A stretch of 64,000 nt of DNA from Ulva prolifera. Lineage: Eukaryota; Chlorophyta; Ulvophyceae; Ulvales; Ulvaceae. The notes beneath the pieces were generated by a model. The model saw only the letters and a program-made list of their open reading frames with translations. It had not been told where the DNA came from and made no database searches. Of this stretch, positions 40,560 through 62,017 are shown in pieces; position 1 is the first letter of the stretch; each line of letters starts with the position of its first letter. The stretch is from the NCBI GenBank assembly GCA_023078555.1, contig CM041202.1, positions 806,001 through 870,000 on the forward strand, written 5' to 3'. The translations under genes were made by a program, and so were the position numbers.

Positions 40560-43364
40560 TCACGCGGCGGGGTTGTTGCAGAAGGCGATCTCGCCATCCC
40601 AGAAGCTCGGCGCCCTCCACAGCCTGTGCTTGCAGCGGTAGTCGCGCGAGTTGCGCTTCACGCAGCGGTAGTCGTCGTCGCAGCACGGCAGCACGGTGTC
40701 CATGCCGGAGCCGTAGCACTTGAAGTTGCTGACAACGCAGTTGCTGCTTGCAGAGGAGCACACGTCGAGGCTGACGCGACAGTCGCCGGTGCCTGTGGCC
40801 ACGGCCGATGCGATCGCCTCGGCGGTGACGACGATGATGCGCTCCTCCAGCGCCGTCTGGAAGTCACTGGCGAAATCTCCGCTGCCACCGACTGCACCCA
40901 CACCGTGCCCCGTCATGTAAGAGCAAAGCTTCTATGGCAATTGGCCCGCAACGGCCGGACTGCCCATGGCATGGCAATGGTGATGACGGGCACGCGCACG
41001 CACTGGCACGGCCACAGTGAACGTGTCGTGTGCACAACCCTGCCGCTGGCAAGTGTGACAGATCACCCTCACAGCAGCATACGGCAACCCACATTCTGGG
41101 GGTGGATGATGTTCACTTTTAACGGGGGGGGGGGGGGGGGGGTCGCACAGGCGCAGGTCTCAGCGTAGGCGTTCAGGCTCGCCTCGACCCAGATGGCGCC
41201 CCACACGCGCGCCTCAGCACCCGCCGCAACGTCGCAGTTACACGAGGAGGCCTCCGCCCAGGCGAAGGCAAAGGCCTCGGCCTGGGCTTCCGCGACCTCC
41301 TCGACGTCCGCCTGCGCCATGCCGCACGCCTGCGTATTCTCGCCGTTGGTGGCGCACCACACGTCAGCGGAGGCAAAGACCTCAACTAGCGCCGTGGCCG
41401 TGGCCTGCGCGATGACAGTCGTCTCGGCCTCCGCGATGTCGCCGTTGCATGCGTACGCGGCCGCATCGGCACCTGCGCACGAGCCAGAATGTTCACGTAT
41501 CTACCATGCTAAGTGTGCTTGCACCACGGTGTGACGCGTGGGGGTCTGTTGTGCGTTTGCGGGGAGTCGGGTCAGCTGACACCTGTTGGGAGGGGAGAGG
41601 TGTGGGGAGGCAGGAGAATCATTTAGATACTGCGGCAGGGTCGCTGAGGAGCCTACTCTGTGGTGGCTGATAGGCAGCGGGCGCCAATCGCGAGTGACGG
41701 ACAAACAAAGTCGATTCATGGAGGCATTTGGTGCAGGCAGTACGCAGGGCGATGGCTGCAGCAGGTGGTGGCGACAGGCGGGGGGCGCACCAGCCTGGGC
41801 GATCGCATCTGTCGCATAGGAGGTGGATTCCGTGAAGGCGAACGCGTCGCAGTTTGCGTACAGTTTGCCGACCTGCATCAGACAGCACAGAAGGTTGGAT
41901 TTCATGTCCGACCGGGACCACATATCTCCACGGGATCCTATTCACAGACGGCCATGCATGCACACCCTCTGCGCGGCCTTTTCGCGCAGCCTCCTGCGTG
42001 AGGTTGAGCCTTCCAGCTGGAGGATGGCCATAAACACCGCACTCAAAACCTGTCGCTCTCCGCTCAGAGCTGAAACAGTGCTGCATGTGCAAGCGGGCCT
42101 AATTCAAAGCAGCAGCGCAAGCCATGTATGGCCTGGGCACATGCATGAGTGCCAGTGCAAATGCAAATGATTCATGCAGGTTCCGGGGACAGGTGCCTGC
42201 ATGAGAGGCGTACATCTATCTCAGCGATGATACTGCCGGAGCAGCCGCCCTGCGCCTCGGCGTGTAGCGCCGTGGACAGCGTGACGATGATGTCTGCCAC
42301 CTTCTCCACAACTATGTCGCTCGTCACCTGCTTCAGATCTTGAGCCGAGGCGCCCGCGTCAGAGTACACATAGATCTACACAGTCAACGTCCACGGTGAC
42401 GCACTTCCGGATTCCGAATGGAACGGCATGGCACGGTGTCAGTCCGGCTGCTTACTGGCATGACTGCCAGATGAAAGCAGTGCTGCGGCAGCTATACGAT
42501 CGTGCAACAGGGCGCTGAGTTGTCAACACCAAGCCCGCGCTCTGAGCAAGGTTCCGGAGCCTGCGCGAGGGTGTGCACGCATGGGCACAGCTCCTTCAGG
42601 CTGCTTGGTACAAGATAATGCAGCGTGCAGTACCGCGAGGCAGCATGCGCCTGGGCCACAGGAGGGGGAGGCCCGCACGTCAGTCCACGCCTCTGCGACG
42701 GCGTCCGCGATGAGCAGGTTTGACACGCTGACAAACGTGTCTGCCACCACCGAGCAGCTGTCGCAGACTGTCACGTCCGCCCAGACGCCGGCGATCGCCT
42801 CGCCGAGCGCCTCGGCACGGTCCTGCGCGTACGCGTATGCCTGGGCGCGCGCGTCCGCCGACCCCTGCGTCTCGCACTGCGCCACGACCTCCGCGAAGGC
42901 CTCGGCGACGGCATACGCGACATCAGTCGCCTGCGTCGTGACGTCGAGCTCCACAGAGGTCGTGTTACCACACACCCTCTCAGAGATCTCCTGCCCTGTA
43001 TGTACGTTCCACCGTCAACGCCAGCCTGATCACGTGCTGTTGTCTGACTGCTTCTGCGGGCACCGGGATCCCCATGAATAAAGTATGCCTGCGGACCAAC
43101 TCCGACGATCGGCGGAGCAGCCGCGCCAGGGCTGTGCTAGAAGCGCAGGCTGCAGGGCACGCTGTGGTCGGCATCCCCGCTTGTCCACATGCATGCACAC
43201 ATTCACGCACGCACGCATGGCCACAGGGGCCTGGAAGACGCCGTGCAGGTGGCGGCCAGCTCTGCGGCTGCGCCACCGTCAGGGCTCTTGTCCTCTCTTG
43301 GGTTCATAGCAAGGTGGCAGAAAGTTCACCGGACGTCGAAGTGCACAATCAGGGGGGCATGAGT

Positions 43365-43401
<37 letters not shown>

Positions 43402-43532
43402 CGGCGTACATGCTTCAACGAATGCACTCTTGCTGTCAGAGGTTGCGAAGGACTTGGCCGTGACGCTGCAGTACGCCGACGAGAAGTTGACGTCGTTCGA
43501 GCTGCCGCCGCTGGACGACGCTGCCCACACCC
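40560..43532 (-). CDS. Ala/Cys-rich repetitive protein, probably secreted (5' end missing)
   Basis: Six exons join with perfect phase agreement: 43532-43410, 42995-42679, 42375-42214, 41872-41791, 41472-41149 and 40891-40560 (stop TGA), about 446 residues. The body is built of alternating Ala stretches such as AYAVAEAFAEVVAQC, AQAYAYAQDRAEALGEA and AQAEAFAFAWAEASSCNC, separated by regularly placed Cys. The last 70 residues are Cys-rich (CYGSGMDTVLPCCDDDYRC, CVKRNSRDYRC) and end FCNNPAA. Many Cys and no cytoplasmic motif point to a secreted or cell-wall protein. The exon carrying a signal peptide was not found upstream of 43532. Function is unknown; resemblance to alga-specific expanded families is from memory only. 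Two introns open with C runs of 37 and 19 bases, another with C6. Confidence 0.62.
41124..41142 (-). repeat. Poly-C run (19) just inside an intron donor
   Basis: On the minus strand the exon ends at 41149, the donor reads GTGCGA, and C19 follows directly. Confidence 0.9.
43365..43401 (-). repeat. Poly-C run (37) just inside an intron donor
   Basis: On the minus strand the exon ends at 43410 and the donor reads GTACGCCG, followed by C37 (36-38 given likely sequencing slippage). Confidence 0.9.
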
Positions 43533-46500
43533 CTGCACACCCGCTCAGCCATGAGGGCACATAAGAACGCACATGTGCATGTACCACAGCCGGTTACGGC
43601 AGGCCTGGCCATGGATGCGCGTGTCGGGCAGTTAAGAGGCTGCTGAGGGAGGTTTCGATGCTTGCGTGGCAGTTGCTCTACGCAGCGGGGTGTGATGCAG
43701 CCAAGCAACAGACACACGCTTCCACAGGGATGCCTGCACGGAGCATAGGCAGGCGCATGATGATTGATTGGCATGGCCGGATGCAGATATTTGAAATCAG
43801 AGTCTGTGTATCACTGTGCAGCTTTGCTGATTCATGTTCCCATGCATCCACTGCAGGCTGATACTTTAGGAAGGCACTATATCTCAAGCAGCCCACCACA
43901 AGCAGTGGAACCGGTGCTACGGCTGGCAAGGCATAGCGAGAGTTGTTGAAAATAATCTCAATGAATGAACATGTCTCCTGTGGCTATGCTTCCCGCATGT
44001 TACACCACACCGCCCATGAGGCCGCGTGCACGCAACGGGGCGCGACTCGCGCAACTGCGTGGAGAATCGAGGAGAAACTGCACTGCTGCACGTCAAATGT
44101 GATGTGTAATGATTGCTTGCATGCATATCCTGCTGATGACTGACATCTCGTGTGCATTGAATGCTGTTGGCGGAAGCCAACCGCCTCGATCCTACGATGC
44201 GATCGCAGCTGTATGTGTGCTTGCCAGGTAGACACAGCAGACAAGTGAAACAGGCGTCCGGCTGCAACATAGAAACTGAAGAGTGCAACGTGTGGCTGTC
44301 CACGCGAATCCAAACCCGTGTGTGGCTACAGGCTGTCACAGAGCTCTGCAGAGATGTGCCGTGTGCTGCATGCATCAGCAGGAGCCTTACAAATGCCGCA
44401 CGCGACGTGAGCGGCATGAGGTCACGCCAGCGACGCTGCATGCACACAGAGGCTGCACTTCGCTAGATCAACATAATATCCCGAACCTCGCGTATGTGTC
44501 CACGCGGGCGCTTTGCATCACGATGTTTGTCACGACAAGCCGTGTCGGCGTATCGAAGCGCTGACGTTCGACAGCGCGCACGCTTGCGCTGCGCGCATGC
44601 CGCGGGTAAGGAAAGGGCCCCATGGCGCAGTCACGCAACAAGGGTACTGTCGGACAACCGCGGTGTCTTTGGAGCAACGGGGCGCAGCGTGGAGGTTTTG
44701 GACCGTGTGTACGTACCGGTGCTGCTGGACACGATAGCCGCGGCAGCGCAGCCAAGGCTAAAGCGCTTCAGAGACAGCATGCTGAGATTTCCTCAGTCAG
44801 ACTCAACCAGGTCAGATGTTCTCCTGTCTCGTTCGAGCCCTGCACACCAGAGCCGCGGGTCACCTTACACATGCTGCTTCTGGAATTATGCCATCCCGCT
44901 TCACCAGCGTCATGCGAACGATGCTGCTGCAGCACAACCTCGAGCGGCAGCCTCGACGCGACCATATGAAAGCTAAAACATGGTGTATCGGTATCAAATA
45001 GGTCAGCATGGGACATGCGATGTGTCGAACTGCTGCATCGAGGCCGGCCACGTGTGATGCCGAAACGATGCCCGCTCGTCAGATCGCGCCACGCAGGTAC
45101 CCGCGTGAACAACTGCTGCAGCTGGCCATCACCAGCAATAGTTATACTAGAGTAGTATCAATTTGAAGCTACTCACCTGCAGGCTCTGGGTGACGCTGTG
45201 GAGATCTCCGGAATCGAAGAGTCACACGATCACGACTGGACCTCAAGCATGCACTGCTATGGAGCCTACAAAACTGGCTGTTTCATTCGCCGCACGGCAG
45301 CACTGGAAGGTTCGTTATGACTTTTCAGGCCGTTGAGCGAGTGGGCTACTTATATAACGCGCACGACGCCCATCACGGCTGCGGCTAGCGCTGTCCCGTA
45401 TGAATGGAGCATGCTCGTGCAAGCAGCATCACACATGGCCGCCATGCACGGAGAATGCTCAAATCCACTTCACATGCGTCAAGCTTGCTGCACAGCGAAG
45501 CATTATGGGCGGCATGGCATGGCGCGATGCGTGACTCCATGCTGCCCAGGAGTCGCGTTTCCTCGACCGCGCGCAGGTGCAGCTGCTTGGTGACGTGCCA
45601 TGGCGCCAGGCAGGCCCTCATCTTGTGCGAGAGGGTGCACAGTAGGCTGCGGAAGTGACAGCCTCCGCTATACTGAGGTATCTCGAGATCCGAATTTTAT
45701 CTGGGAAGTCGATGAACAACTTGATCAAGTTCGAACTGCTGCATGTCTGTGCTCCAGCTTGCAAGGGGCAAGGTTGTCTACAGTGGAGAGTGCTGAGTGC
45801 CAGTGGCGATGGTGCCTTGGGATATGTAATATTGCTCTGACTCGGATGGGGTGTGGCTTCATTGTTCTGGTTTCCTGCGAGGTTCCTGTGCTGCTACCTG
45901 CCTGTCCAACGTTGTTCTTGTACCACAAGCACAGGGACATGGCCATGGGTGCTTGCAGCCCCCCAGGCTCATGCCTGTGCCAACATGTGCACAAGTCGTC
46001 TAGCAGTGTACATGTCAGCAAGAAGTTGGACCTGGGCCATGTACATCGCCGCCAAACGTTTGAACCCCTGCAGCAACACCGCCAGTGTTGCAGCATGCTG
46101 CGCTGCGCTGATCATGAAGTTTTAATCAACATGTTATAACTAATTAGACGTACTGACGTCCAGTTCTTTGGAGACTGCGCCACTGACTGGAGCCGTCAGA
46201 GGCAGTTGAGCAGTTGTTGGTGCACCCTGACATAGCATGCAGCTTGTCCTCCATGCACGCCTCCGTTTTACAAGGACGCAGCGAGCGAGGTAGGTAGCAC
46301 CGCGGGCAACAACCAGGGGAACCGCACACCCACGCAACCAGAAACACGCAGCACATACCAACACACCCACGCATGTGATTGCGCAATCGCCCACTGTCAG
46401 CACCCGCCCTGGCCGCAGCCACAGACACACTGGCACAGAGACATGCCCCCATACCCCACACCCACAATCATACCCGCACGCCCACCCCCATCCGCAACCC

Positions 46501-47115
46501 TGTCCCACAGCCCGGCCCCAGAGCCCCGAAAGCACACGCAGCCCAGGCTGCAAAGGCAAACACACAGAGGCACGTACAACAGAGGCACAGCTGTCTAGAG
46601 GCACGTACAACAGTCACCGAGAATCCAAGACATTGCCTGTGCTAGGCAACGTCTACACAGGTCGTCGCTCATATGCCACTCATATTTACAAGCGTCCACG
46701 CTCATGCACGGTCGCTTACGCAGGCTCTTATTTACCCCCCCATTTTCCGCATATATATGAGCGGAAGATTTTCGATATGAGCGAGTTTGTTTTTCACGAG
46801 ATGTACAACTTTTGTATTTTCGGCACCAGCAGTGCGAGTTTGAATAGCACCATGTGCATTTGTGTAAGTGTGCTTGCCCGGGCAGTACCCCTGATTGTGG
46901 GGGGTATGCACCGTCATGTACGTGACTGCAGGCTGCAGCTTGGTGGCCAGCAGTCTACCCAGAACAGGCTGTATGCCATGCCCAACAGCAAAGCCACTCG
47001 TGGCCTTGCTGCAGGCGCATGGCACACCCCCCCTCTGCGTGGCCCTGCTCACTGCACCCGCCGCACGCGAGCTGCGTCTGTACGAGCTGCATTGGAGGTG
47101 GTCAGCCCCTCATGT
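43533..47115. other. Region without a supported gene
   Basis: It may hold the 5' exon(s) of the Ala/Cys-rich gene on the minus strand. On the plus strand, 44650-44815 reads EVLDRVYVPVLLDTIAAAAQ and on, faintly like a dynein-tail segment (see findings). Bases 46420-46560 are a CA-rich low-complexity tract (repeated CACACCC/CCCACA). No complete gene could be built. Confidence 0.3.
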
Positions 47116-47568
47116 GGCACAGCCCAAGCGGCTTCCGCCTGGGCTGTCACTAGTGGTGCATGCATATGCGTCATCGGCACAGCCCAAGCGGCTTCCGCCT
47201 GGGCTGTCACTGGTGGTGCATGCATATGCGTCATCGGCACAGCCCAAGCGGCATCCGCCTGGGCTGTCACTAGTAGTGCATGCATATGCGTCATCGGCAC
47301 AGCCCAAGCGGCTTCCGCCTGGGCTGTCACTGGTGGTGCATGCATATGCGTCATCGGCACAGCCCAAGCGGCTTCCGCCTGGGCTGTCACTGGTGGTGCA
47401 TGCATATGCGTCATCGGCACAGCCCAAGCGGCTTCCGCCTGGGCTGTCACTGGTGGTGCATGCATATGCGTCATCGGCACAGCCCAAGCGGCTTCCGCCT
47501 GGGCTGTCACTAGTGGTGCATGCATATGCGTCATCGGCACAGCCCAAGCGGCTTCCGCCTGGGCTGTG
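47116..47568. repeat. 60-bp minisatellite, eight tandem units
   Basis: Units start at 47116 and repeat every 60 bases to 47536; the eighth is cut short. The core is GGCACAGCCCAAGCGGCTTC followed by CGCCTGGGCTGTCAC. Units differ only at a few sites (ACTAGTGG or ACTGGTGG; CTTCCGCC or CATCCGCC). The period is a multiple of three, and five of six frames stay open, so long open frames across it (such as 46375-47646) are not evidence of a gene. Confidence 0.97.
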
Positions 47569-49004
47569 CCGCAAGCGTGCAAGGCTGTGAGGCTCCTACC
47601 TGCCATGGCTCCGAGTCCGTGCAATTGCTGTTTCGAGCTCGTCTGAAGCTGTTCGGGCAGGCTGCAGCCCCCTTGAAGAAAGTAACCTGTATGCATTGTT
47701 CCTTGTCAACCCATACAGCGTTGTAGCAGTTGCAATTGACAATTGTACACGTACCTGATGTGTCAATGACTCGACGCACGCTGTCGCATTGTCGTAGCTG
47801 ATGGGACAAACAGGTCATACTCAGGTCTCTCGATGCCAAACGCCGAACCATGTATGAACTGACCTGCACAAGTAGCTGGGCGACCTGGTCAACCGTCGAT
47901 GCCTGAACAAACAAACGATCTGCACAGCCGGTGTTACTGGACCGAAGCCTGAATGCATACGAGTAGGAAACATACTACCTTACTGATCATCGGTCAAAAT
48001 TGTGTTCTGTGTCTCTCCCATCCATTTGCGCTGAGATGTGTCGTCTCTGCCTCTTGATCGTCAGTGGCGGTTTCTCGTAACTGTCAAAAGTCAATCACCT
48101 GCATTGGCCTCACATTAGTCTGCTTCGTCCGCAGGTTCGTGCTTTCGCCGTTTGACAACCAACAGTTGCCTGCGTTGTTACGCCACGATACTACCGACGA
48201 CGCCTGACAACGCGATCTGGCACTGATGGATTATCATGACATAATCGCAGCCATTTAAATGCCATGTGATGGACGCTATATGCAAGGCGGGGGGCGCTCT
48301 ATGGCGCACCAGGTACCCCTTTCTCGTCATAATGAACGGTGCTAAGAGGACGGTATGACAATCACCCACACTTTATCCATCTGTCGAGTAGAAACGTACT
48401 TGTGAAGACATATATCCTCTGCAGCGATGGTACCTCCCTGCACTGCGGTGCAGCAGCGTTAACGATCAAAAAGGGCGCAATTCTTATCTTCCGGAGCGCA
48501 CACAACCGACGAAGTGGCATAATAAGATTATCCATGAGGATGCGGTTTGGAAGCTGACATGTACTGATCTGATTTCGTCATGGCTGCGTTAGGCGGAGCC
48601 TTCCGTTGACTCGTTTTGTGACAACGGGGCACTCGCGGCCCGTGTAGCCATGGCCACCGGTGTCGCGTGTGCGTTCTCCTGGGTACCCATCACATCTCTG
48701 CTAAAGTCCGTCTCGGCATATCATGTTGGTTTTGGCGTTTTCTTTGGAAATCACGCTCGTTTACTTCTTCTTCTGTGGGGCGGTGTTCACCACAAGGCCG
48801 TCAGACGTCACTTGTACTTTTTGCCTGCAGCAAAGCATCTGTACATATTCACGACGTTGATTATAGACGCCTCGTGACACCCCCTCCGGCGAGTACTCAG
48901 TTGGAAGAGTTACCGACCGGACTGCAGATGTGAAAAGGCCGCACGAGTAATCTACCAGTCCGTGCGCTAGCGATCCGCCCCGCTGCTGTTTCAAATTTGG
49001 ATGA
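47569..49004. other. Spacer before the transposon-like gene
   Basis: No recognisable gene. If the downstream transposon is complete, its left terminal inverted repeat should lie here, but none could be seen by eye. Confidence 0.3.
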
Positions 49005-49976
49005 ATGCAGCCAGCTATTGTATGTGACACGTGCGGGATGGCTATAGTGGGGGCGCCATGTAGAGGCGCGGCAGCAGCACACAGAAGGCATTGCAGGGGT
49101 TTCATCACGAAGCGGACCACAGCAGACCGGTCATACAATGAACGGGTACTTACAAAATTGACAAACAATCAGGCCGCTGCAAGCATTACCAACAGACTGG
49201 CTACCAGATCTGCAGAGTCTATGATACTCCCCAACAGTCCTCAAGCAGAAACAGCCCATGATCCAGCAGAATACAATCACACCACCAAGCCCCACCTCGC
49301 CCCAGCCCAGCCAGGCACCAACAAGGGTCTCTACGGACAGGATCTCGGTGAACCAGAATGTGAAACGGAGTGCAAGCCTGAGTGCAATACGGAGACACCA
49401 GACACAGGTTGGCCAACCTTTACTCTTCCAGACGCTACGAGTGAGGACAACTCCGAACCCGACAGTGATGGAGAGCAACCATCAGATGCATCTGTACCTG
49501 CATACGTCGAGAATATGTTGATAGCGAATGATATCATTGCATGGATGCTCAAAGACCTTACAGCAGTACAGCAAAGGAATTACTTCATGGGGGTGCGCCT
49601 GTTGGAAGTGCTGAGAAGGCAGACATCCCGACCTGAGCACGAGAGACGGCCCACGATCCATACAGTTGAAGCACTGAATAAATACCTGGATGACAAAGCA
49701 GACAAGTACCGATGCAAGATGACAGCCAGGGAAGTACCTATTGTATCAGATCACGCATTACTCAGGCAATTGGCCCCGGTCCCATTGTTCATCAGGCCAA
49801 TCGCTGAAGTGTTGAGCTGCTCGCTTCAGAATCCTGTCATCGAGAACTGCAACATACGCATGGATCCAGTCAGTACCTCTGAGGGCTCCCTCGACGCTGA
49901 CATGGCAGGCAGGGTCGTGAGTTTCATGCACGGCTCGGCTGTACGCCAAGCGAAGCAGGTTCCGCTCCCCTCGTAG
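49005..49976 (+). CDS. Transposase N-terminal segment with Cys/His finger
   Basis: An uninterrupted 323-codon frame from ATG 49005. Residues 7-30 hold a zinc-finger-like CDTCGMAIVGAPCRG...HRRHC. An acidic, Pro/Thr-rich disordered part follows (PDATSEDNSEPDSDGE), then a folded helical part (NDIIAWMLKDLTAVQQRNYF). The finger plus acidic linker at the N-terminus is common in alga and fungal Plavaka/KDZ transposases. The frame closes at 49976, but splicing upstream of this stop (for example at AGCAG-GTTCCG near 49957) is possible. Confidence 0.5.
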   Translation: MQPAIVCDTCGMAIVGAPCRGAAAAHRRHCRGFITKRTTADRSYNERVLTKLTNNQAAASITNRLATRSAESMILPNSPQAETAHDPAEYNHTTKPHLAPAQPGTNKGLYGQDLGEPECETECKPECNTETPDTGWPTFTLPDATSEDNSEPDSDGEQPSDASVPAYVENMLIANDIIAWMLKDLTAVQQRNYFMGVRLLEVLRRQTSRPEHERRPTIHTVEALNKYLDDKADKYRCKMTAREVPIVSDHALLRQLAPVPLFIRPIAEVLSCSLQNPVIENCNIRMDPVSTSEGSLDADMAGRVVSFMHGSAVRQAKQVPLPS

Positions 49977-50589
49977 AAGGCAGGGCGACTTTGTATGAGT
50001 TACAGTCATGCACCACAAACAGCTGATGGTGGGGCGACGTGCAGGCTCGGATTCATGCCCGGATGCAGGGCGGACTAGGGTTAGCAGAGTCCACAAGGCC
50101 CATTTTCGCAGTGGCAATATTCTTTGACAAGACCCTGATCAGCCCAATTGCCAAAAGGTGACCTCTCTTAAAAGGACAGTGGTTTGACAAGCCTGTGCTG
50201 CATGATCGACCACACCCTATCCGGCAGAGTCAACAGTAGCCTGGGACTGCAGCATATAGAGACAGATCTAGATAAGCCAATGCGTGCTGCTGCAGTGAGC
50301 TGTACCCTATATTTGTGGCACCGATGAATGTAGATGCCAGTCTGCGTCAGAATGCGATACAACTACTGTGCATGGTCCCAAATGTGAAGGAATGGGTACT
50401 TGCACAGAGGCCAAAAGGCCAAGAGCATGTACGCGTGGCAGACATCGACGCCGCTATAAGTGCCACCACCGCAGCGATGTGGAAGGAGATGCTCAGAGAT
50501 ATAGGGACGGCTACGCAGCCAGAATGCGGAGTGCGCTACCCCCGCCAATGTTGGGGGATGACGAATGGTCCAGATCCAAGAAGGGGAAT

Positions 50590-51294
50590 GGTATCCGGAC
50601 GGCATATGCACTCAGCATGTTACAACCATGCGTGCCTGATCTGGTGCAGGTATGGGTGAAATTTCACAAGGATAGAGAAGAATTGTTACGCCACAGCAGT
50701 GTCGAGCCGGCGTTTGATTCAAGAGGTCCCTACCTGACAGCCCATTGCGACGTAATGGTGGGTACATTGATTATGGACACCGTAGAGGCTGCAGCTACAA
50801 TGGGGCTGATGCAGCGATTCGCGTTTAGGCTTGACAGCGTCAATGGAGGCACAGATGCCGCCTGTTTGCTATGCCACACCTCTACATGCAAATTTGACCT
50901 CGCAGCACATGAGCTTTCCCCAGAAGACCGCAAACACCGAAGTCCCAGAGAAGCAGAAGCAATACGAGAGTCAGGGTCAAAGGCAGAGATGAAAAGACAA
51001 GGCAAGTCCCGGCACAGGAAGCCTACAAATCTGTAATTGTGGCATAGCAAAGGGTTCCACAAAACGAGTAACGAAGGATACGGCGACAGATCAAACTGGA
51101 CCTTATGAAGCGTGCCACGTCTGAGTCTTGACCACTCGTGTTGTGCAGGCATAAAAGCCTCTAGCCCAGCACTACAGAGCATATTCTGGGACTCGCAGTT
51201 TGAGTGGGGCGCCCTCCCAGAGTTGTGGGGGGTGGACCACCTGCATCACTGGACACTAGGCGTGATGAAGCGATTCGGGCTGGATCAACTGAAA
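50590..51294 (+). CDS. Transposase central segments
   Basis: Frame 50590-51034 reads YALSMLQPCVPDLVQVWVKF, GPYLTAHCDVMVGTLIMDTV, then CLLCHTSTCKFDLAAHELSP. After an intron-like gap, 51148-51294 reads GIKASSPALQSIFWDSQFEW, then WGVDHLHHWTLGVMKRFGLD. D-x-LHH/Q-x3-LGV-x-K is a conserved line of Plavaka/TNP2-type transposases just before the catalytic core ends. Upstream, 50324-50560 (MNVDASLRQNAIQLLCMV) may be another exon or part of the same one in a different frame. Exact joins cannot be fixed by eye. Confidence 0.45.
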
Positions 51295-51417
51295 GTATGT
51301 TGCATGCTATGTTGTATCATGCTCCCGCGACCCCCACCATGCCACACCGCTACAATTGTCCCACTCAGTCAAATCCGTAAGCTGGTGTAAAATGACTATT
51401 TCTCACAAGTGCAGAGC

Positions 51418-52042
51418 ATAATATCCCTACTGGCCGGGCTTGGAAAGGAGTTGGGGAGAAAAATCACAAAAGCAGAGCTCACCGATCGCCTTAATTATTT
51501 GTTTGACGAAGTAGCCGTCTTTGTGGTCCCACCCTTTGCTTCCCTTCCCCTGGCCTTCAAGGGGGGCTTAGTGGGACCAAGCGACACAGTGGGAGGCGGC
51601 AAGCTCCAAGGTGCCGAAATGAATCGTGTTCAGGCTGTGTTAACGTACGTTGTTGACGGACTGCCGGGCGCGGCACACACGGCGGCTCCACTGGCACTGG
51701 CACGGTAAGAACTCTCCGGCTCCATCCCCATAGTGGCCCATGAGCTCTGCAATGCCACCCTACATATTTTATGGGCATGATGGAGGAAGTCCAGGTCGGA
51801 TAGAATGCAGACTCACAGCCTTGGGGGCTTTGCTCTTGAGAGACAACCTTTCGTACGTGGGCTGGACTGAACAGGAAGCAGATGGCCTTCAAGATCACAT
51901 CGGACATGTGTTCCTCCCTATCATGCGCAAGTTTTTGGAACAACTTCATGACAGCAGTGAAGCGTTGACACAAGCAAGGGTACTGAAGACGCATCTGGTC
52001 GTGTCACACGCAACAGAAAAAATGATGACACATGGCGGATTA
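51418..52042 (+). CDS. Transposase C-terminal core segments
   Basis: Two segments. The first, about 51418-51704, reads IISLLAGLGKELGRKITKAE and FVVPPFASLPLAFKGGLVGP. The second, 51740-52042, reads IECRLTALGALLLRDNLSYV and VLKTHLVVSHATEKMMTHGG. The K-x-H-x3-H line resembles the K-F-H-x-L-x-H helix that precedes the last catalytic residues in this superfamily. The segment ends at a GTGCGA donor (52048). Confidence 0.4.
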
Positions 52043-52201
52043 CAGGTGCGAACACAAAATCATGTGCCTGCCCTGCAATCCACAACGATCAGTACTCTGG
52101 CATGCTATACTGCGGCAGCGGAACCGCAACAGCCCTGGCAAGGCCGAGGGGATTTCAGACACAACACCCCCCAGCGTCAGTCGGGATGAGCTATGGCGGA
52201 G

Positions 52202-52708
52202 GTAACATTCATGACGCTCGTGACCAGTTCACATGTGCAGGAGCACAACACGAACATATACGAAACTGTACACAAAGACCAGAAGAAAATAGTGAGGATG
52301 ACAAACATGGCACCGCAAACCTGGCGCGAAATGCATGCCATACATGCCAGTAGATGGCAATCGCTTGTACACGAGGCCTACATGAACCCGGGATTGGGTG
52401 CTTTATTGTTTGGGAGAATCACAGCCACCTCCATTGTGACCGAGCTGCACAACAGAGAGGACCCGGCACAGGGAACACGGCAAAGGATCATAGACAAAGA
52501 TCCCCCAAGGTCAATGCAGAAGAGAGAATCGGCGCTGATAGTCCGACACATTCAACTGGACCACGTCGCAGCGGTCCACCGAACCGGGAACGGCAGCACG
52601 TTCCGTACCAGATTATTTTACCTTGTAGTTCCCCCCACCCCGCCTCCCCTACCCCGGCCGGTTTTTAGCCAAGACTGTGTGAAAGACGTTGACCACAGGG
52701 ATGGTTGA
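52202..52708 (+). CDS. Transposase segment with NT-E-HK-K-TN signature
   Basis: After an acceptor at 52200 (GCGGAG) the frame reads VTFMTLVTSSHVQEHNTNIY, ETVHKDQKKIVRMTNMAPQT, then WREMHAIHASRWQSLVHEAY. The block N-T-x-x-x-E-x-x-H-K-x-x-K followed by T-N is typical of Plavaka/KDZ transposases. The end of the frame (52620 onward) is Pro-rich and may be intronic. Confidence 0.45.
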   Translation, partial: VTFMTLVTSSHVQEHNTNIYETVHKDQKKIVRMTNMAPQTWREMHAIHASRWQSLVHEAYMNPGLGALLFGRITATSIVTELHNREDPAQGTRQRIIDKDPPRSMQKRESALIVRHIQLDHVAAVHRTGNGSTFRTRLFYLVVPPTPPPLPRPVFSQDCVKDVDHRDG

Positions 52709-52735
52709 CTGTGAGACGCGCACTTACACATGCAG

Positions 52736-54150
52736 GTACTCCTGGCAATGGCAGAGGCACAGAGAGGGACACCAAGACAATTGCGTGGGAGCCCGTGCGC
52801 CGCTATAACGGAGGCGGCCGGGCTCGAAGGGGCTGGACGGCAACAAGCGCGGTGTCACAGCATTCGGATGGAAGCGATCAGGCGCCTTCAGGAGGGCGAG
52901 GTGAGTGCCCCGGTGCGGGCTGGACTAGAGACTGCGATCACAAACGGGGTTGTCGTCGATACGGCACAACAGGTACTGGAGTTGCCCGAGCTACTGTCAC
53001 TGCCGTACTGCTTGGAAAAGTATCTGGGGCAGCAGGTCGAAGAGAATCTTCGGACAACGGGAGGCTTGAAGCAGACACTTCTGAGGCTGTGTTTGGTGAC
53101 CAGCCCGAACATCAATGTGACGTACTACAACCACGGTGACGCAGGCAGTGCCCACCTACGGCAGGTGCGTTCCGAGAGGTACCAGGAGCCCCTCATGGGG
53201 TGCAGAGTTATGCAGGAGCCATCAGCACATGCGACGGGGCCACTGCCACAGGCCCAAAAGGCGGCCGAAAATGGATCTCGGAGATTCGGAGCTTGCAGGT
53301 GTCTTTCATGAACAGACCAAGCCACTTGAACTTTTTCTTGACGGACAGCGAAGTGCAAGAGACGACAGACAAGGAACTCGAGGCCAGACAGAACAGCATC
53401 AACTATCGCAAACAATTCAACGCCGTCATAAAGGGGGAGTCTTCCCTTCCACCCACTAAATGGGTGTTTCTATTATGTACAGGACTTACGATGCTGGTAT
53501 GCAGACCGGACGCAGCAGGGTCTGGGTTCACCGAGTTGCGGGTGGGAGACTCGGACACGAATCCGAAGGAGTGCACGGCTCAAGTCAACCTCCTGAGATG
53601 GTTACACCGCCTGCGCCCACAAAGACGACGAAATGTATCTTCTGTAAGTAGTCTGCTGCAGAGGGCAGACCCAAATGCCGAATTCTACGGATGCGACCGC
53701 ATGGTGTGGTCGCGGATTGGGGAAGCAGAATACCCAGCAGACATTAGACACCTGAATCAGAAAATTGCGGAAGCTGGACAAGAATCGAAGCTACGGAAAA
53801 CGGTACGTCCAGGTAGCAAACGGAAGGATACAGACATCGCCGCAGAAGCGGCTGCAGTCACAAAATGTCGAGGCGCACTTGATGGTTTCGGGAAAGATAG
53901 ACTAAGAAGTGATGATGCATACAAAGGTATTGCGTTTTGCGCGATCGCTGCACCGTGTCAGACTGCCACACCAGTCAGAGTCCTTCCAGTGCTTGGGACA
54001 GAGCGAGTGGACCAGTGGCGACCGGTGAGCGATAAAACTGTCGCAGGGAGGCGGTTTCGCGAGTTTGAGAGATCGCAGGGATACAAACTGAGTAGCTACT
54101 ACCAGTTTCGGGTGGATTTGACTGCCCAGCCGCGCGGATACGAGGTGTAA
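52736..54150 (+). CDS. Unrecognised two-exon reading frame, likely the transposon's C-terminal or second gene
   Basis: Exons 52736-53164 and 53299-54150 (stop TAA) join in phase 0 across a GTGCGT...TTGCAG intron, giving about 426 residues. The first part is helical (LELPELLSLPYCLEKYLGQQ; LKQTLLRLCLVTSPNINVTY). The second has WVFLLCTGLTMLVC and a Lys/Arg-rich stretch (KLRKTVRPGSKRKDTD), ending KLSSYYQFRVDLTAQPRGYEV. No family is recognised. Position suggests it belongs to the transposon, either as the transposase tail or as an accessory protein. It could also be an independent host gene. Confidence 0.4.
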
Positions 54151-57100
54151 TATTTGACGCAAGTGAGACCCGGTTACACCTGGTCGTGCACAATCGGCAC
54201 ATCGCTGGTGACAGGCAAGACCAACAGTCTGAGTCGTCAACGCATATCGCAGAACACACCATGTATCTGTGTATCGTATCGGAAGTAATGCTTCACGGGG
54301 TGGCGGTGAGACCGCCGACGCTGTCGGTGCACATGATCACGACGTGATCGTCTTTGCTATGCAGCCCACGAGGACGAGGCGTCGACCACAAACTGCTGTC
54401 ACAAAACATGCACCAGATGGTAGACTGTGCAGGCTTAACCTGTGCGCGCCCAGATGGGAGGACATTATCGAATGATAAACAGACCCGTACAGCTTTGTGC
54501 GCGGGCCTGGCCACAGGCGTGTAGTGTTTGATTTCTCCCGTGATCTCTTTTGTTATTATTCCATATTCGTCAGACTGCATTCCTGGTTCATCGCCGATCA
54601 CCCTCTGCGCCACACTCACATTCAAGCGCCAGAGCCGAAACAGACCACTCTCAGACCCGCGGTAACCGACCATGGTTACCTGAAGGCTGTTCGGCCATCA
54701 TGCCTTCATCATCATTCATCATTGATCAATCCATGTGCCTAGAATGGTGGTCTTCAAGTCGAAAGCCAGTCTGAATAAGAGCGAACCGGCCGGGTCCATC
54801 ACCGATGCTCGTGGTGCATAAAATCAGCAGATTGCACGTATGTAAAAGTTGCTAATGCAGACCTCGGGATCGTCGTGATAGCTTCCACCAGCACCTTTAC
54901 CAGCGGTCAGCGCGAGCGTCCCCGCGCAGAGCAGTCCTGCATGCTTTCGGCAACGGACTCTTCATCAAATGACGCAATCTGGCCAGGTACAGGCCTTGAC
55001 CATGAAATTGCAAGGCTATCCAACCGCACGAGCCGAATTTCGGTATGCTTCCAATGATGTCACATTCTCCAGGTCAGCGTTTCGACCCAAACATGGTGAA
55101 CTTACCGCTCATATTGCCGCTCATACGGAGGCGCTCATACGCATGAGCGACGACCTGTGTAGACGAATGTCTTGGTCCGGATTCTCTTGACGGCCCTTGT
55201 AACCACAGGTGGCGCACAGATGGACATCATGCAACAGGAACAGCATACAGCCCAGCCAGTTGCGTACCTCTACAGCATGCGGCCATTAGGACACAGCCAC
55301 GACTGCTATACCGGCTGCATTGGGCCATGTCGATTCACGAGTTCAGGCTACACACCAGGCATCGCACAGCTTCTGTTTGAACACGTACGTATCGACGTCG
55401 ATGCTGTTGATGCAGTGTGAGAACGCTCAACACAGGCAGTTCCTTGTGGCCGGGCCCCACTTTGTCCACACCCTGGCAAAGTGCAGTTGAGAATGCAGTA
55501 TTTCCTGCCAGGCAAGCAGTGACCAATGGCCGCAGCCGTTTCCACAGCTACACACACAACTATGAAGGAGCCACAGTCCAACCGCGACGATGCACCCCCG
55601 CAACAGTGGAGCTCGAGACGAGCTGTCTGTAAGGTATCTGCAGCCCTCCGAAGATGCCACAGTGACTGGGCTGTTTGCTCAGGCCACCCCATACGACCGC
55701 GTCTCCAGGAACGTGGCCAATGCTCTTGCAGTAGGACAAGGTACCCAAGTGGAAGCACGTTTTACCGAGTGTGTCTTGTAGCACTTGTTTCCAGCCACTC
55801 ATGTGAATAGCCACAGTCCAACCGCGACGCCACTCATATGAATAGATCACCGAAGGGAAGCATGTCCAACGCTGTACCGAAAGTGTGTGCCTTGTGTCCC
55901 AAGACAGCACTTGTTGCTTTCGGGTGGCCATGCATCTGGATACCTAGCAGATGCACTTCTGCCCACGATCCGCAGCGGCAAGCTGCACCCAGATGTTCAG
56001 ACAGAGAAGATCAAGTTTGAGGGCTCGAGGAGCTTGGTTTGAGACCGGGCTGCTGCACCACAGCATGGCCAGCACTGTGCTGCTGTGTGCTATGGACGAT
56101 GAAAAAATGTGTGTCAATTTATGTTCGACTTGCCTTGCCTTCACTTCTTTCAACGCCCGGACAGTGTGCTAGGAATGGGAGGTGCTCAGGCTTCTATTGG
56201 CACAATCAGGCAGAGAATAGGACATTTGGAGGAGAACTGCTGGAATAAATCTCAGGGACTGTTGAGGTTAACATTTCGATGAGCAGCTACATAAAAGTGG
56301 TGATTTCATTCCAAACTGGTCTCCTCCAGTAGACCGGGGTTGCATGTAGGTCAGCAAGGGGATGGGCGCGGAGGGGGGGCTCGTGCCTGGGCAGTGGGCT
56401 TGATCATGAGTCATGCGATTGATGCTTCGTATTCGACTCCCTGACTTCGCTGTTTCGAGCTATGGCTCCAGTTAGTGTCACAAACGCCGGACCAAAGCTC
56501 GTCAGCGGCGATCGCGATGCACAATTCACCTGCCTTTCAAACTATATCTTTTCAACACTATCTCGATGGCAGTAGTAGCTCACTGCGGCAAACGTCTCTC
56601 CCGTCCATGTTGGTATATCAGCGCTTGCATTACCTTGTACGCATCGTTCTGTGTCGCATGCCGCATGCATATCAAAGCACATCAACACACTCACGACGCG
56701 GTTCAATGCCTCCTACCCTTTGTGTGCTTTCTCGTCATTACATTCGCTGGAACGTGCGCTGATGTACCTTGCTACCAAATAATACTTCCATATACCACAT
56801 TCGACGTGGAAGTCGTTCACTGTCATGCTCATGCTCTCTCAGTATTACGGTCAGATCCACTAACGCTCCTCAGGGCATGTACTTGCATGCTGAAGCGTAA
56901 TTTGGATCGACGTATTCACATCGCGGTGTCACATCTCGGTGTCCCGTGCACACTGGTGCGGCTTGTAACCTTAAGGTCGTGGTTAGGTCGGGTCGTGCAC
57001 TGCAGCTGTCGTCTGCGACTTCCGATCGGTATCTGAACGCAGTTGGATAGATTGTTGCATGATATAACTTCTGAACGAAAATTTCAACGCGATGGCGGCC

Positions 57101-58911
57101 TGGGAGCGATGTGGTACAGGAGGCCCGAGGCCAGTCTTCAGTAGGGCCTTTGCCGACTGCGCATTCTTGCGATAACCCCAATCTGCAGTGTATACATACC
57201 ACATGAATATCATAGAGCTGTCTGCGTCGCCTTCGTGATCGCGACCCGTACCACTGCTGCACGCTTGATGTTTCAGGCAGAGCACGGCAGCTGCTGCCGC
57301 ATTAGTGGTGACACAGGAAGCCTGGCTTCAGACCGCGACCTGCACTGGATAACCCAGATTTTGATTTATGATCTCATACGATACGTATGGCTGTGTCATC
57401 TCGACGACGGGCCAGGTGCATGAGTGTTTGCCCCTTCCGAGCTGTAGCTCCACGGCGCCTTGCGCAACGGGATTCTACCCACGCAAGGAACTGCCCTGAT
57501 AACGCTACCTAGCAGTTCGCGACGGTGGCGGACTGTGTGTGCTGTGTTCCTGTTCCTGTGGTGCGCGAGTTTCTTGCGGTGCTACCTGCCTCCGACTGTT
57601 CCATAGCAACACAGCCAGTCGACATCCGCCCACTGCAGCCACAGCACCCACGGCGGACAAAGCAGTGTTGTATCGTCGAGCCCAATATCCATCGTGGTTT
57701 CTATGTTCTGGCTGTATCTTACAGAAGACACATCATGTGAGCTGTCCAGCTTTGTCACAAAGCAGGACTCCTTGTGCAGTGCCCGCATGCAGCACCTCCA
57801 CTAGGATCGTGGTGGCTGCAGCCACTGCCCAGGCGAGATGTTCAGTTGCAGTGCAACGCCGGTGCAGAGTATGAAAGAAATTTCACTTCCATGCTTCCTC
57901 CTGTTCTTGGAGTGGGGGTCGCTGCCCTCAAGACACCCCGCCCTCGAGCTACCCCTTCCATGCCACCTCGGCAAGGTAACCAGATGCTACCTTGTATTTC
58001 CTCATTCTGGGTGGCTGGAGGCATGCACAATGAGAGGCCAACCTCCAGTGGCTGTGTTGATCATTACTAGGAAGCAAAGAAGCGCCGGTGATGCGATTCA
58101 CTCTGCACTATGGAGACTCGCGTTAGGTGGGGCTCCCAGCTATAGTCGCGTGAGTGATACTCTAGAGCTCTGTCCAGTATTTAGCTAGGGCACAGCAGTA
58201 CTGTCGTCGGATTTGATCAGTGGTAAATAACACCTTATTGTCGTCTATATCATACTCGTATTACAAAATGTCTGCAGCCGGCATGCGACAGTGCACAGTA
58301 TTCATTCAGTGGCATGTGCGCCGGCAAGGTTGTGTACACACGCAGCCGTCTCCATGGAGGTTACACCCGCTTCACATATCTCCCAAGAAACAGGAATCAC
58401 ATCCACTGCCTCAGTCCCAAGCCGGCAAAGGCCACGGTCCTATGCAGAAACAATATCATTTCGTGGCTATGGTGCAAACTTGCACATCAGATGACCCTGC
58501 GCCCCCCCCCCCCCCCCCACCCCCGCCTTCTGTATGACTCACATGATATGATGGAGATGGGAGACTACAGGTGTCCTCACCATCCACCAAAACACCCGCA
58601 CGAGCATGCAGCGCCGCATGATCTTAGGTCTGCCGCCGTTGGCGCACCGCAGCAGGCTGCCCTGCCACACACAACTCCTTCGCAAGATCAGGGCGCCAGG
58701 GCCATTGTCCGCCCGCCACAGTTTCTGTGTCAGCGCAACTCTGTAGTTGTACAGTCACAATCTACATGCATGTGCATGTGTTCACAACCCAAGTGACGCC
58801 AGTGGCGCTTTTAAAGCTGCCCCCCCATGGGCGGGAAACAAAGGGGATGCACTGAACAAGGGTGGCTACCGGGGGAGTGAGGTGGCCACCGGTGCACTAA
58901 GATCCCATGCG
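54151..58911. other. Long gene-poor stretch
   Basis: About 4.8 kb with only short, family-less open frames. It contains a 19-base direct repeat (GCCACAGTCCAACCGCGAC at about 55571 and 55811), each copy near a CCACTCAT(G/A)TGAATAG word, and a C17 run at 58502-58518. The kinase 3' UTR lies at its right end (minus strand). No gene can be supported. Confidence 0.35.
58502..58518 (+). repeat. Poly-C run (17)
   Basis: C17 followed by ACCCCCGCC. Unlike the other long runs it is on the plus strand and outside any exon/intron structure I can define. Confidence 0.9.
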
Positions 58912-59252
58912 TCACTCGTCAGGGTGCTCCGCCATGGTCTCGAGCTTCTGCGAGAGGCGGGAGAGCATGATCTCCTGGCCTCGGTAAGGGTTGTCGCTCG
59001 CAGTCGTCTCGCACGCCTTTGCCACAACGGCGCGGATCGTGTCCTGCTGGCTCGTGAGGCCGCGCTCCTGCAGCACGCATCGCACATGTCTCATGCATCA
59101 TGACGCTGCCGGCCATACCGGCCCCGTACAGCAACACATCAGGATTGAATCGCAGGCTTCCCTCGACTCCCTGTATTTTGTACGCAACTCATACTGTCCG
59201 TTGGTGAGTTCGACAGGGTGCGCAAAGATCCCGGACACTCGTGCATGGACCA

Positions 59253-59289
<37 letters not shown>

Positions 59290-62017
59290 CGCGCACGGAG
59301 GCCATGCGCAGGTGTGCGGCGATCTCGGCCTGCTCGGCGAGTATCTCGGCCATCGCGCGCTCGTACCGCGGCGCGAGCGGCACGACGTACCAGGGGTGCT
59401 GCCGGATCTCCTCGATCTTGATGCGCTTTGCCTCGTTGATCTGGAAGATCTTGTTCAGCAGGTCAACACACTCAGGGGACATACTCTGCAGCACACGCGG
59501 GGCTTAGGCACGCAGGGTACGGCTCCATCAAGGGGGCCGCATGCATGAGGGTCTCAGGTGGGCGCCTGCCATGCGACATGCTCAGAAGGTTGGTGGCGGC
59601 ACAGAGGGCAGCCAGGGTGTTGAGCATCGTGTGCAGCACAGTGGCTGGTGCGTTGCACGTCACAGAGCGCTGATGCAACCCACACGCAGCAACATCACCA
59701 CATGCTCCAGCTGGACACACTGCTATTTGTCTGCAACACACGCAGCTGCGGGCCAGTACACACACGCATGCGACCGGCCCAGCACATGTTGTTGGCCTGC
59801 AAGAGGGAAGGCACCCATCGGAGACACCCGGACTCTGTGTGGTGCTTACACTAGAGTGTCTTAAAAGCAAGGAACATGTATCCATGCTGAGGTGTATAGG
59901 ATACACATGCAGGCGCTGCGCGAAGAGCGCCCGGAGATTGTTGTGTGACAGTTGAAAACACATGAAGAGTCAGTGGGGGGGGGGGGGGGGGGGGCACCTG
60001 CACGATGTCGCGGTTGCGCTCGTTCTCCGTCCAGTGGATGCGGATCTGCTCAAAGTGGACCTCGTTGAATGCGCGCTGCTCGTCCGCCGCCGACGACGTG
60101 GAGTGCTCAAACGGGAACGCCCCCAGCAGCATCACGAACAGCAGCACGCCGCACGCCCACACATCTGCGCCACCGCCACCGCCGTCAGCATGCATGCACG
60201 ACTCCGCAAGGTCACAGAAGAAGCTGTGAGGACAGAGCACCAGCACAGCACGAAGCAGGCCGGCCGGACGCAGGTGCGTCGGGTGTCTGGCCGATGAGGC
60301 ACACAGCAGCCTATGGAGACAGCCCGGGGCGGCGCTATGTGGCAGTAGAGAGAGTGTGTGTGTGTGTGGAGGGAATGAGGTGTAGGGGGTTGAGACGCGG
60401 CAGGTGTGTGACATGGCAACTACAGCACGGACTCCTGGCACAACGGGGAATGCTGGGGGTCCATGGGGAGATGGCCACGTCATGGAGCAGCATGCTTGCA
60501 AGGGGCAGAGGGAGGGGGGAGCCGCACCGGCGGCGCGGCCGTCGTAGCCCTTCTTGCCCTTCTGGATCTGCTGCGGCGCCATGTAGACCGGCGTGCCGAT
60601 GTTGGTCATGAGGTTGTTGCTGCCCATGAGCTTCGCGAAGCCAAAGTCGCAGATCTTGACGTGCGGGGGGTCCGCGCTGTTCAGCAGCGTGTTGTCCAGC
60701 TTCAGGTCGCGGTGCGCCACGTTCTGCTGGTGGCAATAGTCGACCGCCTCAATGCATTGCTGCATGCATGCGCTTCTTGTCTTGGCAATGCTCCACACAG
60801 ATGCATGGTGCTGCTTCTGACAGTGCTGTCTCACATGACACCAGTGCCGTGAGCTGTGTGTAACAAGAGACGGCCGAATGCGGGCATCGTGTGTGCAGTG
60901 GATGCTGAGGCTGTGTTGACCGGTGCTGTCGACCAGAAAGTGTGCCTGGATGTGGCGACACAAACTGATCGATTCTCAGGCGGCATGGCTAGGTGGGCAA
61001 GCCCGTACACACTGCGCCAGCAGGAAAGGAAGCAACGCAAGCGCAAGTCGGCATAAACTATGGGTCGACGATGACGTCGAATCAGGAGCCTTGCTGTGGG
61101 CAGTAAAGATGGCCGGCAATACCTGTGCCCTGCACGAGGCAAAAGTGTGGGCGATTGACGTGAGGCGTGTGCGGTGCTGCGGGCCCCGCTGCCACGCTGC
61201 TTGTGGCATATGCCACCACAGGCATTAGAACCAGAGGTGCAGCACACCATCTGATATATGCGCTACATGCGTGTGAGAGCTGGAAGCAGTGTATGCGGCG
61301 GCCAGGCAGCAGCCCCATGCTTGCCTGTTTGTGTGCCCAGCTGCCTGACTGACGCCACAGTGCGACAGGTGATGGCCAGCCAGGCGCACCTGGAACAGAA
61401 AACGAGCCTCGTCCTCGTCTAGGTAGAGTCCATGGCGCTGGTCTGCGGTCTCGCAGCGAGCGCTGACGTAGTCAGTCAATGTCCCGCCACTGATGTACTC
61501 CATGAACAGGCACAGATGCGTATCGGTGAGCATGAGCTCATGCGCGTTGACGATGTTGACGTGACCCTCGCCTAAGCTTGCCTGAAGAATGACCTCGTTT
61601 GTGATGAGGTTCTGGAGGACTAATGGTATGGGCCTCTTGATGACTTTTACGGCCTCCTCCTTCCCATTGTCGCGTCGCTTGCACAGGTACGTTTCTCCTG
61701 TCCCACCTACGCCCAGCGGCTGCACAAACAGCAGCATGATGGTGACGTCCACGTGCGATTGCGTAGTCGACATGCTCATGCCCGTGGCGGACGATGGCAA
61801 CTAAACACCGACACAGCTTAATAAATAGCACAAACAGCCAGGTTGCCGCAGCACCACGCACCCGAATTACGTCATGCTGAGTCATGCCAAAGTTGGCTGC
61901 CGCTTCCTTTTGTCGGGTTGGGCTGATCGGCGTTGCGTTGGTCCTGTCAGCGCCTGTGCCTGTGTTGGCTTGGCCATCGTGCAGCGTTTGCGCCGACGAG
62001 GATGCTCCACAGCCCAT
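58912..62017 (-). CDS. SnRK2-like Ser/Thr protein kinase with N-myristoylation motif
   Basis: Six exons join in phase: 62017-61862, 61719-61390, 60759-60528, 60164-59998, 59485-59297 and 59067-58912, giving 409 residues. The protein starts MGCGASS, a strong N-myristoylation site with a palmitoylatable Cys3, so it is probably membrane-anchored. Kinase motifs: GVGGTGETYL (P-loop), AVKVIK (ATP lysine), FMEYISGGTL (hinge), HRDLKLDNTLL (catalytic loop), PPHVKICDFGFAK (DFG), GTPVYMAPQQ (Glu of the APE motif is Gln), DVWACGVLLFVMLLGAFPF, RIKIEEIRQHPWY (end of lobe). The HRDLKLDN/PPxxKICDFG pairing is characteristic of plant and algal SnRK2 kinases (stress, sulfur and ABA-type signalling). The last 75 residues are helical and lack the Asp/Glu tail of land-plant SnRK2s. 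Introns 3, 4 and 5 begin with C-rich sequence. Confidence 0.82.
59253..59289 (-). repeat. Poly-C run (37) just inside a kinase intron donor
   Basis: On the minus strand the exon ends at 59297, the donor reads GTGCGCG, and C37 follows. Confidence 0.9.
59975..59994 (-). repeat. Poly-C run (20) just inside a kinase intron donor
   Basis: On the minus strand the exon ends at 59998 (GTGCAG), the donor is GTG, and C20 begins at the fourth intron base. Confidence 0.9.

Follow-up and report, generated by a model that had tools for sequence, protein, structure and literature searches.

Long poly-C tracts behind predicted 5' splice sites in the genome of Ulva prolifera

A window of 64,000 nucleotides (nt) from the Ulva prolifera genome (contig CM041202.1, here C7:806001-870000; genome total 88.9 Mb) contains two genes in which long poly-C tracts closely follow predicted 5' splice sites (donors). 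In a wider sample of this genome, 19 of 75 such tracts follow a coding exon with a predicted donor 3-30 nt upstream (16 of 70 outside the window); the same donor score is reached at 5.8% of 6,000 random positions. Long homopolymers are usually taken as noise across non-coding DNA, but in this genome about one in four of the sampled runs share one gene position and one strand. The explanation tentatively preferred is that a C run at the head of an intron acts as a splicing enhancer, with slippage as the source of its length, although this falls somewhat short of probable.

The sample of 214 kb consisted of the window and 15 stretches of 10 kb (20 positions were fixed beforehand, of which 15 exist). 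A codon model was trained on the open frames of the sample, followed by a purpose-written gene finder with donor and acceptor matrices. Two features bias the gene finder toward such donors, namely a starting donor matrix based on introns of the window and a cap, at a slightly negative score, on codons within runs of at least 8. The signals that it learned are (C/A)AG|GTGCG followed by C-rich sequence for the donor and TGCAG|G for the acceptor. Of 106 predicted introns, 53 were discarded for antisense conflict and 53 were kept. The donor set began with 124 scored sites, which form 71 clusters and, after a strand filter, 70 donors, 55 of them outside the window (150 kb). The 75 tracts of at least 13 bases with sufficient upstream sequence come in part from 60 loci taken in order from the start of the contig C1 list, hence a non-random draw, with overlapping loci merged. 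These tracts are 13-37 bases long, plus one of 45 and one of 78.

A coding exon was found within 240 nt upstream of 20 of the 75 tracts. The exon is in the sense orientation for 19 of these tracts, within 30 nt for 18 of them and 32 nt away for the other, and for the remaining tract the two strands score almost equally; at random positions an upstream coding exon is found in 5.5% (sense) and 5.9% (antisense). Twenty donor-side tracts begin at intron positions +4 to +25. The initial annotation of the window had proposed that a preference for donors would be refuted if C runs were spread evenly over introns or equally over the two strands. In the sample neither is the case, since 19 of 20 tracts are in sense and close to the exon. 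Location within introns also differs from the unbiased type described for Caenorhabditis elegans, as only one of the 20 tracts is more than 30 nt from the exon. A cruder count, of GTG within the 12 nt before a tract, gives 23 of 75 compared with 11-15 in the next four 12-nt bins. The C runs do lie within about 10-20 nt behind predicted donors, use of which is judged from coding potential and kinase homology. No coding exon was detected downstream of the 14 tracts with 240 nt readable on that side; since the kept introns have a median length of 318 nt, many of the next exons would lie past this reach. In the 53 kept introns all four C runs of at least 12 start no more than 12 bases from the donor and none lies in 19.5 kb of intron middle. 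Three of these four are tracts of the window, therefore this result weighs little. A C run of at least 9 is found near five of the 70 predicted donors (two of the 55 outside the window), and all five are 13 or longer; C runs of at least 9 occur in 0.155% of random windows.

The same preference is found in counts of the donor word GTGCG next to C runs, for which the control was the same word in reversed order beside the run. On both strands, GTGCG is directly followed by C14 or longer at 110 sites (mirror 5), by exactly C9 at 19 (mirror 1), by exactly C6 at 270 (mirror 49) and by exactly C3 at 4,188 (mirror 4,029). The excess over the mirror is thus 159 ± 91 for C3 and 221 ± 18 for C6. When 0-9 letters are allowed between GTGCG and C14, the forward strand has 163 sites, compared with 22 in mirrored order; the frequency of GTGCG predicts about 30. 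In these gapped counts the forward and mirrored-order columns alone count each site once, as the others recount long runs, and the count at a distance of 10-19 also includes tracts with an earlier start and is unusable. Strong upstream coding was seen at 13 of 20 GTGCG-C14+ sites (contigs C2-C7) and at 15 of 20 GTGCG-C6 sites (contig C2), with a baseline of 17.4% of 656 GTGCG sites in the sample. The C content is 32-43% behind donors, according to the donor set and the inclusion of long runs, and 27-29% in intron interiors. Donor runs of about six C or more exceed the expectation from independent letters, while C3 hardly exceeds the mirror, which suggests that something favours C runs behind donors. 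The jump from C3 to C6 is also steeper than independent letters at the C content of donors would give.

Poly-C forms a distinct length class in this genome. Runs of at least 14 C number 3,798 genome-wide, with 1,884 and 1,914 on the two strands, and runs of exactly C9 number 1,239. The C6 total is about 34,500 (from 83 in the sample; the genome-wide C6 and C3 totals are scaled up in this way). In the 214 kb sample C/G runs reach 78 bases, seven C/G runs fall between 9 and 13, and A/T runs never exceed 11. Run lengths are therefore bimodal for poly-C, with a long class mostly of 13-37, and poly-A and poly-T have no such class in the sample. G/C homopolymers are thus far above chance, as in Caenorhabditis; G or C runs of 13 were absent from all 100 dinucleotide shuffles of the window.

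Several loci illustrate the behavior of the tracts. The duplicated pair L024/L025 (C1:45688-46007 and C1:58226-58545) is 99% alike over 240 nt but its copies carry C32 and C22, as would be expected if the run itself lengthens and shortens. The two copies are inverted relative to each other and about 12.7 kb apart. Locus L013 (L013:5940-9838) has four C tracts (22, 15, 78 and 18) on the same strand within 4 kb; two are clearly behind donors and two are behind GTG words, and the C78 is the longest run observed. In L046/L047 (C1:492876-493427) a C25 and an opposite-strand C17 are separated by only 28 bases, and a hairpin could form from this inverted pair. The C19-AA-C32 of L055 (C1:723216-723535) resembles a longer run interrupted by two letters. 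On the minus strand of L020, a C33 at strand offset 8224 lies 22 nt behind a coding end and outside the donor-scored set; the end of this stretch may be a GC donor or the end of the gene.

The window features are listed in Table 1. The four G runs of at least 19 bases reported in the initial annotation have exactly the lengths and positions given there, and on the transcribed strand all four are C runs that start 3-8 bases into predicted introns. The short forms, GTGCG-C6 and GTGCGGCT-C6, are likewise present as claimed. The list of runs of that length was correct, but a C17 breaks the pattern.

Table 1. Poly-C runs, host genes and other features of the window (positions within the window)
Feature	Position	Strand	Details
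C19 tract	41124..41142	-	begins at intron +7; donor GTGCGA from 41148, picked by gene finder
C37 tract	43365..43401	-	begins at intron +9; donor GTACGCCG from 43409, by frame only, missed by gene finder
C37 tract	59253..59289	-	begins at intron +8; donor GTGCGCG from 59296, picked by gene finder
C20 tract	59975..59994	-	begins at intron +4; donor GTG from 59997, by gene finder and SAPK10 alignment (small gaps)
C6 short form	41780..41785	-	right after donor GTGCG (41790-41786), picked by gene finder
C6 short form	60514..60519	-	after donor GTGCGGCT (60527-60520), by gene finder and alignment across the junction
C17 (G17 on transcribed strand)	58502..58518	+	393 bases beyond the kinase stop; off-pattern
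C10	9604-9613		further C run
Gene 1, alanine-rich Cys-containing protein	40559..43532	-	5' end uncertain; first exon hand-read
Gene 1, predicted exons	about 43532-43410, 42995-42679, 42375-42214, 41872-41791, 41472-41149, 40891-40559	-
Gene 2, SnRK2-like Ser/Thr kinase	58911..61773	-	PF00069 2.5e-62; SAPK10 7.6e-58; start codon uncertain
Gene 2, predicted exons	61773-61390, 60759-60528, 60164-59998, 59485-59297, 59067-58911	-
Tandem array	47116-47567		60-base unit, 7.5 copies, 97% matches

The gene finder called donors at five of the six tract and short-form sites (41148, 59296, 59997, 41790 and 60527). The donor that it missed, at 43409, is frame-consistent because a T|GG codon joins the exon starting at 42995. 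Gene 2 has its best matches among solved structures in rice SAPK10 and the plant kinase SRK2E. Together with the U6 genes and the splice signals of the genome, this kinase suggests a green alga as the source. The SAPK10 alignment (residues 17-298) spans three junctions, 61389/60759, 60527/60164 and, interrupted by small gaps nearby, 59997/59485. Since the match runs across these junctions, the donors at 59997 (C20) and 60527 (C6) are fairly well supported as predicted splice sites. The donor at 59296 lies beyond the kinase domain and depends on codon use, frame and splice-site scores rather than homology. The same three kinds of evidence apply to the C19 donor of gene 1 at 41148. The gene 1 protein, which matches no Pfam family at 0.001, contains several Cys residues and EA/AxA-like stretches that recur. 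Since CCC reads as an open proline frame, gene annotation may fail at such donors; an initial codon scan read straight through the tract at 59977.

The proposed mechanism starts from the observed placement, strand and length class of the tracts and from the lack of an excess at acceptors. About six or more C near a donor would aid recognition of the 5' splice site, perhaps because a poly-C-binding protein stabilizes U1. Runs kept at donors in this way would seed long unstable tracts, with slippage as the mechanism of growth, and the same long tracts would also arise away from donors, with no role there and no gene required. An RNA-level role for the tracts is possible and has a precedent in human cells. 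A few per cent of introns would begin with a C run and about 3% with a long one, extrapolated from two of 55 donors. The totals of about 33,000 donors, about 9,000 GTGCG donors and about 1,000 tract introns, like the 3% and the folds over random, are extrapolations from the 55 donors in 150 kb and from the 19 of 75 tracts. With about 1,000 C-headed introns with long tracts and additional short C6-C9 forms, a hypermutable run might serve as a length-dependent enhancer whose slippage tunes hundreds of genes between individuals, but this extension is speculative and rather unlikely.

A number of observations weigh against an enhancer. Most tracts (55 of 75) lack a coding exon within 240 nt upstream, and C runs of at least 9 are missing near 53 of the 55 predicted donors outside the window. 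Donor tracts are slightly shorter than those elsewhere (median 21 and 25, p = 0.047), the exon side of the donors in front of tracts is not significantly weaker, and a sense G run also passes the donor score in one of 16 cases. In the sample GTGCG also exceeds its mirror beside the shortest runs (C1 167 and 90, C2 63 and 28, C3 6 and 6), therefore the mirror is not a perfect baseline. Finally, poly-C inserted after position 15 of SMN2 intron 7 in a human minigene strongly suppressed splicing until a GCACC motif was broken (PMC8789036). The authors of that study blame the suppression on the GCACC motif, which the insertion created (PMC8789036).

The tracts could instead be a by-product of composition, in which C-rich intron heads start runs and, past about 9-10 bases, slippage expands them wherever coding permits. 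This is a serious possibility, though one given somewhat less weight than the enhancer. The C content right behind donors, given above, supports it. Behind GTGCG the fall from C6 to C9 (270 to 19) is about 0.41 per base, as 41% C predicts; the overall fall is about 0.33 per base (about 34,500 to 1,239). The ratio of long runs to C9 differs only about twofold between the two settings (110/19 and 3,798/1,239), and longest runs of 3-5 C in the 70 predicted donors are only 1.1-2.2 times as frequent as in random windows. However, a smooth composition effect would yield a far larger excess for C3 than for C6, which is not what the mirror counts give. About 2% of the estimated GTGCG donors carry exactly C6, whereas independent letters give 0.1-0.3%. 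The by-product stands close behind the enhancer because the fall of 0.41 matches 41% C, the mirror is imperfect and the donors of tracts are not measurably weaker.

The initial annotation had named G-quadruplex or i-motif formation as a possible role; long G runs can fold in principle. Some feature of the 5' splice site, such as polymerase pausing, G-rich template structure or an R-loop, could make it a mutational hot spot that promotes the growth of C runs in sense. The sense orientation and the tight position would agree with this, as would the same strand bias of intragenic tracts in C. elegans, 84 to 47, but the position of the C. elegans tracts within introns is reported as unbiased (PMC2211496). 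The 55 of 75 tracts with no upstream coding exon also suggest that growth needs no donor. A hot spot is improbable as the main cause.

Long homopolymers are hard to read and the tract lengths may be wrong, which counts for an assembly or sequencing artefact such as false G tails. An artefact would be blind to exon ends and strand, however, and C6 and C9 forms occur beside GTGCG, so this origin is very improbable. The initial annotation had offered introns made by a mobile element that carries the tract (introners) as a source of the repeated placement. The placement itself is real and its restriction to one intron end would suit such an element, but tract length and offset vary, the four whole tract introns have no match at any other locus of the 214 kb, and the only similarity among the flanks of 96 tract loci comes from a single duplicated pair and from overlapping flanks in the same locus. 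The comparison covers 53 whole introns (four with tracts) and the 96 flanks, of which the 320-base loci reach about 50-80 nt downstream of the run; with no shared flanking sequence there is no sign of introners, and the mobile element is the least probable of these explanations.

Other arrangements were considered and rejected. On the strand with a clean count, C14 with TGCAG within 9 nt occurs 45 times, and the mirrored word 23 times. Beside C3 runs (3,440), TGCAG occurs 141 times and the mirrored word 18 times, a difference of about eightfold. Since the TGCAG share beside short C runs is about 4%, about 75 sites would be expected, and 45 is no excess at acceptors. Sense G runs show no clear preference for donors, as one of 16 passes and GTGCG followed by G14 gives 69 sites on the clean strand compared with 57 mirrored, with GTGCG partly merging with the run. 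Extended pairing of U6 with the C run is not favoured, since two U6 copies (of three found) have GATAATTACTGTGAACGAT before ACAGAGA, with no G run. The idea that tracts offset weak donors is not supported by the -1 G, which is present in 5 of 19 tract donors and 18 of 43 others (p = 0.27), or in 11 of 34 when C6 sites are included (p = 0.48). The impression of weak donors arose from the training matrix (-1 G 65%), and the 43 comparison donors are themselves impure. Clustering of C6+ heads by gene (7 in 4 genes, 6.25 expected, p = 0.02) has four of its seven heads in the window; for runs of at least 9, p = 0.33.

By extrapolation, whether poly-C behind 5' splice sites aids splicing could be studied at several hundred natural sites in the genome. 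The tracts also bear on the extent to which splicing signals can give rise to mutation hot spots.

Among known systems, human SMN2 intron 7 offers the closest tested precedent for a splicing enhancer: like U runs, C runs inserted behind its position 10 increase inclusion of the exon, and longer runs do so more strongly (PMC8789036). In both cases the C run lies about ten bases inside the intron behind a donor, which in Ulva is a predicted one, and the effect in SMN2 scales with the number of C; however, that system is an engineered reporter in human cells, whereas the Ulva tracts are natural. The PCBP/alphaCP proteins have a C-rich motif by the cassette exons that they enhance (PMC4797308), and in both cases a C-rich intronic motif lies near splice sites. 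The PCBP motif is mostly upstream of the exon (644 of 686 upstream, 311 on both sides and 42 only downstream), unlike the excess found here, which is only on the donor side. TIA1/TIAL1 binding is enriched on a U-rich element behind 5' splice sites and not at acceptors, and recruits U1 (PMC2964331). A pyrimidine run behind the donor is common to both, although it is U there and C here.

Introners occur in green algae among others (PMC9860276). They resemble the tracts as an intron-end feature that recurs across genes, but the loci compared here share no intron sequence. Among 12 genomes surveyed for tandem repeats, mononucleotide repeats were almost absent in that of the green alga Ostreococcus and poly-C density was highest in Daphnia pulex (PMC3152781). 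Among the matches listed in a search of open-licence papers, no title or opening of an abstract describes a genome-wide pattern in which long poly-C follows 5' splice sites.

The closest counterpart of the tracts themselves is in C. elegans, which has 396 poly-G/poly-C tracts in introns and intergenic DNA, rarely in exons, with G more often on the non-coding strand of genes (84 and 47; PMC2211496). Both genomes have an excess of G/C homopolymers with C on the sense strand. They differ in number, 396 there and 3,798 of at least 14 bases here (the cut-offs may differ), and in location, as position within introns is unbiased in the C. elegans report whereas 19 of 75 tracts lie behind donors here. 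The tract excess and the strand bias are therefore known from C. elegans, and the donor-side placement is the new part.

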